Shown here: piece by piece, positions 3,430 through 7,702 of the stretch | How the letters are laid out: every line of letters starts with the position of its first letter | Position numbering within the stretch: position 1 is the first letter of the stretch | NCBI RefSeq assembly: GCF_003205835.1 | Contig: NZ_CP029773.1 | Location: forward strand, 1,458,501-1,522,500 | Direction of reading: 5' to 3' | From: Stenotrophomonas maltophilia | GTDB taxonomy: Bacteria > Pseudomonadota > Gammaproteobacteria > Xanthomonadales > Xanthomonadaceae | DNA length: 64,000 nt | Notes under the pieces: model-generated | The model's database searches: none | The model's input: only the letters and a program-made list of their open reading frames with translations | Told to the model about the DNA's origin: nothing | Made by a program: the position numbers and the translations under genes

Positions 3430-4089
<660 letters not shown>

Positions 4090-4150
4090 CTAGCAGAGCG
4101 ACCCTGAGCGCCCGGCCAGCCTGCGGTGCACGGGTTCCCTGCGCGGGCGT

Positions 4151-4224
4151 GTGTCGACCAAGGTCGACACCTGCCGGAGCACCGCACGCTCAGGATTCCG
4201 GCAGGTGCCCACCTTGGTTGGCAC
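4151..4224. repeat. Pair of inverted SMAG-like hairpins
   Basis: GTGTCGACCAAGGTCGACAC is followed by CTGCCGG and then, inverted, CCGGCAGGTG and CCACCTTGGTTGGCAC. Two small dyads thus form one larger palindrome between rnt (upstream end) and the doxX-like gene (downstream end). The position fits a transcript-end element for the hvf operon. Confidence 0.6.
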
Positions 4225-4249
4225 GGCGCGCGCCGCCCCCGGGCGGTGT

Positions 4250-4771
4250 CTACCGGGCCGCGGGCCGTGCCGTCGTGCCCGATGGCTGCCACCGCGCCAA
4301 CCACGCATCCACACTCAGCTTGCCGGCGCCGGTGAAGATCAGCGGCAGCAGCATGGCCATGAACAGCACCGGCAGCTTGAAGTTGCCGAAGCCCTGGTCG
4401 CTGATCGCATAGCCCATTGCCAGGTCGGCCAGCGAGTTCCACTCCATCGGCCAATGCACCGCATAGGTGGCCACCACGGTCAGCACCAGCAGGCTGGCGG
4501 CGGCGAAACGGGTGCCGAACCCGACCAGCAGGCAGGCCGCGCCGATCAGCTCGAACCAGGTGGCAAGCTGCCAGTTCAGCGCCGCCGGCAGCTGGTCGAA
4601 CGGGAACGGGAAGGCGTCCTGCAGGTCGGCGAACCAGTTCTGGCCGTGCAGCTTTTCGCGGCCGGATTCGAAGTACTCCCAGGCCAGCAGCAGGCGCAGG
4701 CCAAGCGGCGCCAACCAGGGGGCGAGGCGGTCCAGCTGGCCACGCGCGGTGGCCAGGGTCGGAAGGTTCAT
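4250..4771 (-). CDS. DoxX-family membrane protein of the hvf operon
   Basis: Inner-membrane protein of 173 aa with four predicted transmembrane helices and the DoxX-family pattern ([19 protein letters not shown] near residue 30, then [18 protein letters not shown]). It is the last gene of a four-gene run in which the first encodes a cysteine-repeat peptide and the next two its MNIO maturase and partner. DoxX-like proteins are common companions of such clusters, where a redox or membrane role is assumed but not proven. The start has GGAG eight bases upstream and lies 24 bp after the hvfC stop. The biochemical role is unknown. Confidence 0.85.
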
Positions 4772-4795
4772 CAGGGGATCTCCGCGAATGAGGTG

Positions 4796-5551
4796 TCAGG
4801 GAGGGGCTGTGAGCGGGCCGATCACGCCGGCCTGCAGGAACTGCCGCAGCAGCGCGGCACCGGGTTCGGCCAGTGCATCCTCGGCCAGCCCGTGTGCACT
4901 GGCCAGCTGCTGCAGGTAGGTATGTCCTTCCAGCCCAGGCTGTTCGCCGATGCTGGACAGCAGGTACACCGCCAGCGGGCTGAGTGCGGCAAAGCGCACT
5001 TCACCGTCAGCCTCACGGCGCACCAGCAGGCCGGTAGGTTCGGTGGGCGGCTGCGTCGGTGCATCCTCGGCGCCCAGCCGGTGCACCGGCCACTGGTACA
5101 GCAGCGGCCACGCCAGCGGCGAGCGTTGCAGTGGCACCCGCAGCGGATCGATCTCACCCCGCACCGGCAGCGGCTCGGCAGGAAGCTGGTACAGCGCGGT
5201 TTCCACCCACTCGTAGTGGGCCAGCTCGGCCAGCGCCGGGTGCGGCAGCTGCGGCTGTGCCTGCAGCCACTGCACGAATTCGGCGGCCAGTTCGGTGAAC
5301 AGCGGTGTCTGGCAGCGATGGGTGGCGAAGTAGTGGCGCACCAGCGCGCTCCAGGCGGGCTCGCCGAGCAGGCGCACGCAGACCGGGAAGCCGTTGCTCA
5401 ACAGGCCGAGCAGGTTGTTGAACAGCAGCCGCTGGTACACCGCCACCCGTCGTGGCTCCAGCCCGGCGGGTGCGGCCACCGCCTGCGGATCGCGCAGATG
5501 TGCGGTGAATGCATGCTGCTGCGCGCGCAGGGTGCCGGGAGCGTCAGTCAT
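4796..5551 (-). CDS. hvfC: HvfC/DUF2063 partner of the MNIO maturase
   Basis: 251-aa protein of the DUF2063 (putative DNA-binding) family, which accompanies DUF692/MNIO enzymes and is thought to present or recognise the leader of the precursor peptide. The family N terminus is visible ([14 protein letters not shown], then [25 protein letters not shown]). The chosen ATG at 5551 overlaps the hvfB stop in an ATGACTGA arrangement, indicating translational coupling. A longer open frame to 5674 exists but runs inside hvfB and is not credible. The DNA-binding label in the family name is historical, and a role in peptide modification is the better inference from context. Confidence 0.88.
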
Positions 5552-6419
5552 GTGCAGTCCCCGCGTGCGTCGCCTGCAGGCGGCGGATGGTCTGCAGTTC
5601 GCCCTGCAGTTCGGCGTACGGGGGGAAGTTGAAATCGCGCTCGAGCAGGGTCGGACGCGCGCCGATGCGCGCATAGGTGCGCGCCAGCAGCTCCCAGACC
5701 GGATCGATCACCGCGCTGCCATGGGTGTCGATCTTCAGGTCCGGTGCCTCGTCCAGGTGCCCGGCCACGTGCAGGCAGACGATGCGCTCTGCGGGTAGTC
5801 CGGCGATGAAGTTGTCGGCATCGTAGCCGTGGTTGCAGGCGTTGACGTAGACGTTGTTGACGTCCAGCAGCAGATCGCAGTCGGCTTCGGCAAGCACCGC
5901 ATTGGTGAAGGCCAGTTCGTCCATCGCCGGTTCCGGTGCCAGGTAGTAGGACACGTTTTCCACCGCGATGCGGCGACCCAGCAGGTCCTGCACGCGGGTG
6001 ATGCGCGCGGCGGTATGGCGCACCGCTTCGTCGGTGAACGGAATCGGCAGCAGGTCGTACAGGTGGCCATCGTCGCTGCAGTAGCTCAGGTGCTCGCTGT
6101 ACAGCGGCACGCGGTGCTTTTCGAGGAACTGGCCGACCTGCTCCAGCAGCTCGATGTCCAGTGGTGCGCTGCCGCCCAGTGACAGTGACAGGCCATGGCA
6201 GCTCAGTGGATGGCGCTGTGCCAGTTCGGCCAGTGCGTCACCGGCGGGACCACCGACGTTGATCCAGTTCTCCGGTGCGCATTCGAGGAAGTCGAAGTCG
6301 CCGGCCGGTGCATCACGCAGATCCTGCAGCAGCGCCCGGCGCAGGCCCAACCCGGCGGCCGCCGCGCGAAGCGGCGACCGCAGGTGGACAACGCTGGCGC
6401 GGACGTCAGTGCTTGCCAC
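5544..6419 (-). CDS. hvfB: HvfB/DUF692 multinuclear iron oxidase (MNIO) RiPP maturase
   Basis: TIM-barrel DUF692 enzyme of the multinuclear non-haem iron oxidase type, a family that oxidises cysteines of a ribosomal precursor peptide. Recognisable segments are [67 protein letters not shown] and the C-terminal LLERD, which contribute the His/Asp/Glu metal ligands. I place the start at GTG 6419 (GAAGG eight bases upstream), giving 291 aa and a 14-bp overlap with the hvfA stop. The frame stays open to 6614, but that extension is the low-complexity shadow of hvfA. Coupled to hvfC downstream. The modification made on HvfA (oxazolone/thioamide in studied relatives) is inferred. Confidence 0.88.
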
Positions 6420-6762
6420 CGCACTTGCCTTCGCCACACTTGCCCTCGGCCGACTTCTTGTCGCCGCTCTTGGCCTTGGCGCCGGCCGCAGCACCGGCGG
6501 CCTTGCCCTTGTCGGCGCCGCACTTGCCTTCGGTACTCTTGCCGTCGGCACCACATTTGCCTTCGGCGTGCTTGGTCGCGTCCGCGGCCATCTTGGTGTC
6601 CGCTGCCTTGGCATCGGTGCTGGCCTTGGCAGCCTGGCCGGCGACCAGATAGCCCTGGGCGAGGTCGCTCATGCTCAGGGCCGAGGCACTGGCGGTCATG
6701 CCCAGGCCGGCGGCCAGGGCGGTAGCAGTCAGCAGGGACAGGGTCTTGTTGGAACTGCTCAT
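6406..6762 (-). CDS. hvfA: HvfA-type cysteine-repeat precursor peptide (bufferin-like)
   Basis: 118-aa secreted precursor. It has a signal-peptide-like N terminus ([22 protein letters not shown]), an Ala/Lys-rich region and four EGKCG motifs carrying all four cysteines of the protein, the last two nearly adjacent at the C terminus. EGKCG repeats are the hallmark of HvfA/bufferin peptides, whose cysteines are modified by the adjacent DUF692 enzyme to bind copper. The ATG has AGGAG eight bases upstream. First gene of the operon hvfA-hvfB-hvfC-doxX. Unlike many such operons, no ECF sigma factor gene is adjacent in this window. Copper binding and periplasmic location are inferences from the family. 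Confidence 0.88.
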
Positions 6763-6929
6763 CGGTCGTGCTCCTGGGTGGTGTGGGCGGGTGCCCGGGT
6801 CGCCGGCAGGGGTGCCGGTGGAAACGATGGTGCAGCGATCCTACTCAACGAATCCTCGCCAAGACCTCAAATTTTCGTGAGGTTTGTTACAGAAGGGGAG
6901 ACCGGTGGCCAGAACGCCCAAAACAAGAA

Positions 6930-6957
6930 GGCCGCTGTCACCAGGACAGCGGCCACC
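6930..6957 (-). terminator. Rho-independent terminator of the pst-phoU operon
   Basis: On the minus strand GGCCGCTGTC, loop, GACAGCGGCC is followed by a T-rich run (TTCTTGTTTT), 32 bases past the phoU stop. This is a classic intrinsic terminator closing the phosphate operon before the hvf promoter region. Confidence 0.85.
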
Positions 6958-6988
6958 GTGGAGTCGACTCCGGTGTTGCAGTGCAGCG

Positions 6989-7702
6989 TCAGGGCTGGCC
7001 GGTGCTGGAGGTCTCGTCGCGCTTTTCACGCGGCGGCAGCGGCTGCTCACCGTGCACCAGGAACCACACGTTCTCGGCGATGTTGGTGGCGTGGTCGCCC
7101 ACGCGCTCCAGATTCTTGGCCATGAACAGCAGGTGCGTGCAGGGGGTGATGTTGCGCGGGTCTTCCATCATGTAGGTCAGCAGCTCGCGGAACAGCGCGG
7201 TGTACTGCGCGTCCAGGCGGGCGTCGTCCTCGCGCAGCGCCAGTGCGGCATCGGCATCGTTGTCGCGGTAGGCGGCAATGGCACGACGGACCTGCTGCGC
7301 GGCCAGGCGGCCGAGCGCCCGCAGGCCCTGGATCTGCGGCAGCGGCGGTACCTTGCCCAGCGCGATCGAGCGCTTGGCGACGTTGGCGGCGTAGTCACCG
7401 ATGCGCTCGATGTCGGCCGGGATGCGCAGGCCCGCCAGGATCTCGCGCAGGTCGCGTGCCATCGGGCCACGCAGCGCCAGGCGCATCACGTCGTGGCTGA
7501 TCTGCTGTTCCAGCGCATCGATCGCCTCGTCGTTGGCGATGATGCGATGGGCGGCGTTCTCGTCGCGCTTCTCGATCACGTCCATCGCCGCTTCGAGCTG
7601 GGCGACGGCCATCTCGCCCATGCGCACGATTTCGGCCACCAGGCGCTGCTGCTCTTCGTCGTAGCTCTTGACGATGTGGTCGTTGGGAAGATTCATGTTC
7701 AT
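6989..7702 (-). CDS. phoU: Phosphate signalling regulator PhoU
   Basis: 237-aa all-helical PhoU with its two three-helix repeats. It links the PstSCAB transporter to the PhoR kinase and restrains the Pho response when phosphate is plentiful. Family motifs are visible: RMGEMAVAQLEAAMDV, IIANDEAIDALEQQI, ILAGLRIPADIERIGDYAANVAKR in the first half and HLLFMAKNLERVGDHATNIAE in the second, the ERIGD and ERVGD boxes being the metal-binding E/D clusters. Last gene of the pst operon, 91 bases after pstB. A second in-frame Met at residue 3 (7696) has a better-spaced GGA and could be the true start. Confidence 0.96.
   Translation of the reverse strand: MNMNLPNDHIVKSYDEEQQRLVAEIVRMGEMAVAQLEAAMDVIEKRDENAAHRIIANDEAIDALEQQISHDVMRLALRGPMARDLREILAGLRIPADIERIGDYAANVAKRSIALGKVPPLPQIQGLRALGRLAAQQVRRAIAAYRDNDADAALALREDDARLDAQYTALFRELLTYMMEDPRNITPCTHLLFMAKNLERVGDHATNIAENVWFLVHGEQPLPPREKRDETSSTGQP

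Follow-up and report, generated by a model that had tools for sequence, protein, structure and literature searches.

What does a Stenotrophomonas cell use a copper-peptide operon of the hvf type for, and what switches it on? The question is raised by four genes at 4250-6762 of a 64,000-nucleotide stretch of Stenotrophomonas maltophilia DNA (contig NZ_CP029773.1; hereafter the window). The gene set itself is known; what is new here is the region upstream of it, which contains an element shared with a second operon and absent from the initial annotation of this DNA.

Results

Gene content and family membership of the hvf operon

The four genes of the operon were all confirmed on the minus strand. 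The features of the region are the following.

hvfA, 6406..6762, minus strand: precursor peptide, 118 aa, four EGKCG motifs (motif count and family models)
EGKCG motifs of hvfA, about 6550-6565, 6517-6532, 6433-6448 and 6418-6433, minus strand
hvfB, 5544..6419, minus strand: MNIO (DUF692) maturase, 291 aa from GTG (NF003818, PF05114, start conservation)
hvfC, 4796..5551, minus strand: DUF2063 partner with RiPP recognition element, 251 aa (NF050145, PF09836, PF22106)
hvfX, 4250..4771, minus strand: DoxX membrane protein, 173 aa (NF050144, PF07681)
Shared upstream element, 6843..6881, minus strand: core 6850-6879, CACGAAAATTTGAGGTCTTGGCGAGGATTC; ends 87 nt before the hvfA ATG
Terminator-like hairpin 3' of phoU, 6930..6954, minus strand: weak
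phoU, 6989..7702, minus strand: upstream neighbour, outside the system (Pfam PhoU)

The initial annotation had placed these genes in the HvfA/B/C plus DoxX family, a call borne out by the curated NCBIfam models: HvfB passes NF003818 (420.6 bits, cut-off 360), HvfC passes NF050145 (265.3, cut-off 142), HvfX passes NF050144 (153.8, cut-off 80) and the HvfA-family repeat domain NF050137 is also passed (30.1, cut-off 19.5). The full-length HvfA equivalog of Haemophilus, NF050188, was not reached (22.5 bits vs. a cut-off of 95), HvfB did not reach the BufB model (264.7 vs. 310), and a methanobactin-type maturase was ruled out with the MbnB model (47 vs. 325). Pfam detected PF05114 in hvfB, PF09836 and PF22106 in hvfC and PF07681 in hvfX, and no domain in hvfA. 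The count of four EGKCG motifs made earlier for the precursor is correct, and these repeats, together with a KCGExKCG doublet, are those of precursors of the KC-repeat group. A degenerate DNA pattern for EGKCG had 5 matches in the 4.89-Mb genome, 4 of them within hvfA, and 0 when reversed. By inspection, the N-terminus of HvfA, with basic residues, a hydrophobic stretch and A-S-A, resembles a Sec-type signal peptide.

The genome gave one MNIO match; a second one was searched for and none was found. Among the best 80 of 97 matches, the nearest named ones come from the Stenotrophomonas maltophilia complex, with up to 96% identity in HvfB. An HvfB with 86% identity to that of the window is encoded on a contig whose title reads Bacillus subtilis SK7B5, and this record therefore looks mislabelled or contaminated. 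The operon type is already published, as oxazolin and the captophorins, and the Stenotrophomonas copy is an ordinary one, which by itself adds one genus to the published class.

The overlapping frames described earlier were found at hvfA/hvfB (14 nt) and hvfB/hvfC (8 nt), but not at hvfC/hvfX, where a gap of 24 nt separates the genes. The GTG start of hvfB, at 6419, is kept in 43/43 loci whose alignment extends to that residue. As already noticed, no sigma gene adjoins the operon in the window, its upstream neighbour being phoU, but this absence is not unusual and hence does not distinguish the cluster. The same neighbour is found at 72 of 105 loci; the others comprise EF-hand paralogs, two De loci, L062 and loci truncated by contig ends. 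The single terminator-like hairpin between phoU and hvfA (6954-6930) is a weak one, as shuffles of the scanned region yield 1.4 by chance, and weakly suggests that hvf would be parted from the phoU/pst transcript. No sigma-70-like promoter was found in 4080-7100.

Precursor arrangements in Stenotrophomonas

When HvfB was searched in 91 genomes of the genus, matches were obtained in 80 of them, of which 26 had two and one, G076, had a fragment only. DNA was taken for all 106 matches, and a precursor was identified at 105, the exception (L084) lying at a contig end; the MNIO tree has 105 rows, the fragment L096 having dropped out.

In the window, the EGKCG motifs of HvfA start 11, 28 and 5 residues apart, giving two single motifs and a doublet. 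This arrangement, regarded as distinct by the initial annotation, turned out to be the commonest in the genus when EGKCG spacing was compared (34/105 tree rows), followed by an EF-hand paralog type with two doublets (26/105) and by three doublets, the Haemophilus layout (21/105). The 29 loci whose tail exceeds 40 residues received the label EF-hand, which Pfam confirmed in one example of the group; the precursor of L080 has no Pfam domain, and L083 is similar to it by eye. In 75 of the 76 short-tail loci the terminal doublet lies three residues from the C-terminus. L059 (G080), the sole short-tail precursor without a terminal doublet, has a doublet first and then four single motifs.

Other precursor forms were also observed. 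A second MNIO cluster, whose precursor combines EGKCG/EGQCG with EF-hands and is already known as the EF-hand chimaera type, was present at 27 loci (L085-L095 and L097-L112; 26 DDe rows and one TDe row) and missing from the genome of the window. The precursor of L077 (G012) has EF-hands, detected by Pfam, between two EGKCG doublets and could link the two precursor types, and those of L080 and L083 (G001 and G002) have only one EGKCG doublet and end in 46-49 residues rich in Pro and Ala. Elsewhere in the genome of the window (C1:2389822-2391327; L113:823-2328), an epimerase-type ORF lies near a CusF-like ORF, both labelled by eye and from plasmid homologs. Its linker contains EGRCG, EGKCG and EGRCG, each followed by xxM, and the frame breaks soon after. 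This ORF, at 2.391 Mb, could be an MNIO substrate in trans; with its EG[KR]CG linker it was found in this genome only, among 61 searched, and its two plasmid homologs have no EG[KR]CG motifs.

An upstream element common to the hvf and msr operons

The element was derived solely from an alignment of the hvfA upstream regions of 24 chosen loci, in which a block was kept in 17 loci of the window's clade and missing in the 7 others. The first pattern, written from hvf alone (CACGRAAN{14,18}GAGGATTC), had two matches in the 4.89-Mb genome, one before hvfA and one before msrB, and its reversed control had 0. The second site (C1:526013-526042), about 940 kb from the first, is located directly 5' of the gene for a secreted MsrB (TIGR00357, 172.5, cut-off 113). 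On the same strand, msrB is followed by a gene for a 589-aa thioredoxin-type protein, with Thioredoxin_10 above its cut-off and DsbD_TM below it (22.2 vs. 27.1), for which dipZ (DipZ-like) is the label chosen in this analysis, and then by a gene for MsrA (TIGR00401, 171.5, cut-off 108). On the other side of the site, a response regulator and a kinase are encoded divergently from msrB.

A 30-base pattern, written with both sites already known and allowing up to two mismatches, detected the element in 82 of the 91 genomes, with two sites in 54, one in 28 and more than two in none; the reversed pattern gave 0 in all 91. All 41 distinct non-hvf sites examined, a subset of the 82 non-hvf sites listed, had MsrB downstream and a divergent response-regulator-like frame. 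A stricter pattern missed seven loci, five by the spelling of the element and two by one MsrB residue, and the mismatch scan recovered the five. No element site was found in L158 (G012).

Among the hvf loci, the element was present in 54/55 of the window's clade and in 0/50 of the other tree rows, three of which (L071, L075 and L084) were scored as negative on upstream DNA too short for a judgement, truncated as it is by contig ends. The one clade member without it, L057, still shows the right-hand half of the block on visual inspection. Outside the genus, the element was detected in 0/143 genomes, whereas 6/6 Stenotrophomonas genomes were positive, in a draw of 149 genomes of the family scanned with a slightly different pattern and one mismatch allowed. 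As the upstream element is common to these two operons only, the bacterium probably switches both of them on together. The top-ranked literature results, which cover few subscription papers, contained no report of such an element, nor of an hvf or captophorin operon under two-component control, and the main text of the two main surveys mentions neither methionine sulfoxide, msr, two-component nor response regulator.

The candidate regulator

The element consists of the blocks TTGAR-N6-GYGAG-N6-TTGA with an 11-bp period, the usual spacing of OmpR-family operators. An ortholog of the response regulator (E<=1e-60) was found in 82/91 genomes of the genus and was missing from exactly the nine element-negative ones. 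These nine are also without the secreted MsrB (best matches of 40-50% identity); therefore, the msr/regulator locus comes and goes as a block, and co-occurrence does not single out the response regulator. What favours it is its adjacency to the site, the 11-bp period and the lack of a linked sigma gene: no ECF sigma gene was found beside hvf in the window's clade, and none was seen by eye among ORFs of at least 150 aa in the 8-kb msr stretch. The response regulator and the kinase reached no cut-off among the best 25 of 97 and the best 25 of 78 NCBIfam models, respectively, the former remaining under those of the CusR type (154.1 vs. 420) and of HprR (154.1 vs. 353).

In a transcriptome of S. 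maltophilia D457, an msrB (SMD_RS02645) is reported as upregulated after fosfomycin (log2 1.94), PEP (2.48) and GA-3P (2.45), and the tags SMD_RS069 to SMD_RS072, the estimated position of hvf, do not appear in the main text of that paper (PMC8745565). SMD_RS02645 was not matched to the element-bearing msrB, and this transcriptome was left out of the evidence.

Sigma factors and alternative explanations

In the sister clade, an ECF sigma gene lies directly upstream of hvfA in 8 of 12 rows (L062-L068 and L073, between phoU and hvfA), three rows being without it and one ending at a contig end. None of these eight loci has the element at hvfA, and all eight genomes retain one site elsewhere, in front of msrB in each of the seven examined. 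According to one survey, sigma genes go with Buf1 and not with Buf2 clusters (PMC12452194), so that an EGKCG cluster with a sigma gene may be unusual.

Sigma factors are the known regulators of comparable regulons. RpoE2 of H. influenzae is reported to control msrAB together with the hvf cluster under hypochlorite, and the same pair is reported for the meningococcal SigE (PMC7907618). As in a regulon of this type, the target pair of hvf and msrB carries here one shared element, found at these two only, but no ECF sigma gene is linked to the targets in the window's clade. A further case involves the periplasmic oxidoreductase YedY, which we take to be MsrP. In Caulobacter, SigF controls YedY and two DUF2282/DUF692 operons, and its targets are reported to respond to metals and not to peroxide, t-butyl hydroperoxide, paraquat or diamide (PMC3511200); thus, a purely oxidative trigger fits poorly. 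In the three genera Haemophilus, Caulobacter and Stenotrophomonas, the two targets appear to stay the same while the regulator differs.

The element could be the promoter of an unlinked ECF sigma factor instead of the operator of a response regulator, in which case the two-operon regulon would still be real. The use of ECF sigma factors by the known relatives (PMC7907618, PMC3511200), the eight sister-clade loci with such a gene beside hvfA and the presence of several ECF-like proteins in the window's genome (16 matches to the sister-clade sigma at E<=1) speak for it. However, a close ortholog of the sister-clade sigma was searched for in that genome and none was found (best 32% identity), the sigma-bearing sister loci lack the element at hvfA while their genomes keep a site elsewhere, and the divergent response regulator stands at 41/41 of the distinct msr sites, making this explanation an unlikely one.

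More doubtful still is a peptide whose main role is to have its thiols sacrificed to oxidants such as hypochlorite, with copper binding as a secondary property. The pairing of hvf with msr genes in Stenotrophomonas would agree with this, as would the induction of hvf by hypochlorite in H. influenzae (PMC7907618) and the fact that formation of 5-thiooxazole uses up free Cys thiol chemistry in part only, but copper binding has been reported for relatives of the peptide (PMC13097082, PMC13419390).

Finally, that the shared element arose by chance or reflects relatedness alone, without co-regulation, is hardly credible. Genomes of the same genus do lack independence, and the 30-base pattern postdates knowledge of both sites, but the pattern drawn from hvf alone still found msrB, at a distance of hundreds of kilobases, the reversed controls were empty in all 91 genomes, and the core is kept while its flanks vary from the hvf subclades to the msr sites.

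Discussion

Modification, copper and published relatives

The initial annotation had left the modification open. At the family level this no longer holds, as 5-thiooxazole is now the assigned product at the Cys of oxazolin, gonophorin and fontiphorin, which revises the earlier oxazolone/thioamide assignment of oxazolin (PMC13097082). Copper, proposed earlier as the likely metal, is backed by the curated models and by the captophorin relatives reported to bind it (PMC13097082, PMC13419390). By analogy, HvfA would carry 5-thiooxazoles and bind copper. The role of DoxX is still described as uncharacterised (PMC13419390).

The closest comparison is with oxazolin of Haemophilus influenzae (hvfABC-hvfX), which is encoded by genes of the same four families and likewise has Cys motifs of the EGKCG type, and whose co-control with msr genes resembles the pairing proposed here. 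Its HvfA has three doublets, as reported, whereas that of the window has two spaced motifs and one doublet, and it is controlled by the ECF sigma factor RpoE2, whereas here the element lies beside a two-component system with no adjacent sigma gene. Fontiphorin and gonophorin share the EGKCG precursor, the MNIO and the DUF2063 partner, from which 5-thiooxazole would be expected here by homology, but the fon cluster is described without a DoxX gene and FonA with seven sites, compared to four in HvfA (PMC13097082). The Buf1/Buf2 bufferins of the Caulobacter SigF regulon have related MNIO, DUF2063 and DoxX genes, but a DUF2282 precursor instead of an EGKCG one. In E. coli, MsrPQ is reported to be copper-induced through CusSR, a two-component link between copper and periplasmic methionine repair with no MNIO peptide (PMC9302797).

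EGKCG clusters are reported to be limited, for the most part, to the core genes for precursor, MNIO, DUF2063 partner and DoxX (PMC12452194), and the EGKCG units of Microbulbifer precursors to contain five to eight Cys (PMC12538549). In vitro, a one-repeat fontiphorin construct was unmodified and a two-repeat construct was modified (PMC13097082); therefore, isolated single EGKCG motifs may not be substrates. Transcriptional regulators are said to co-occur often with captophorin clusters, and copper, gold and oxidative stress to induce clusters of this type often (PMC13097082).

A probable two-operon stress regulon

Taken together, the captophorin peptide operon and msrB-dipZ-msrA probably constitute one two-operon stress regulon, acting through a genus-specific element and with an OmpR-family response regulator as its likeliest regulator. 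HvfC would bind the HvfA precursor, and HvfB, an iron enzyme, would oxidise the EGKCG Cys to 5-thiooxazole; the peptide would then be exported through its signal peptide and would sequester copper in the periplasm, with HvfX as a putative membrane helper. Transcription of hvf would be driven through the element that it has in common only with the secreted msrB-dipZ-msrA operon for methionine-sulfoxide repair, and from this common element we infer joint transcription. Given that the response regulator encoded divergently from msrB is the likeliest candidate, copper sequestration and envelope methionine repair would form a single regulon. The broader proposal, in which an OmpR-type system runs this regulon and the target pair is conserved in Haemophilus, Caulobacter and Stenotrophomonas with the regulator exchanged even within the genus, could equally well prove right or wrong.

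If true, the two functions would be one physiological unit, an envelope defence against copper-driven methionine oxidation. An exchange of regulators while both targets stay the same would then argue strongly that copper buffering goes with methionine repair. From the element follow the expected inducers (copper and envelope oxidation), a candidate regulator and one co-moving operon, and the spaced-motif precursors provide naturally occurring variants in which the modification of isolated EGKCG motifs can be examined. The shared element thus opens a direct and inexpensive way to test the function of these widespread copper peptides.
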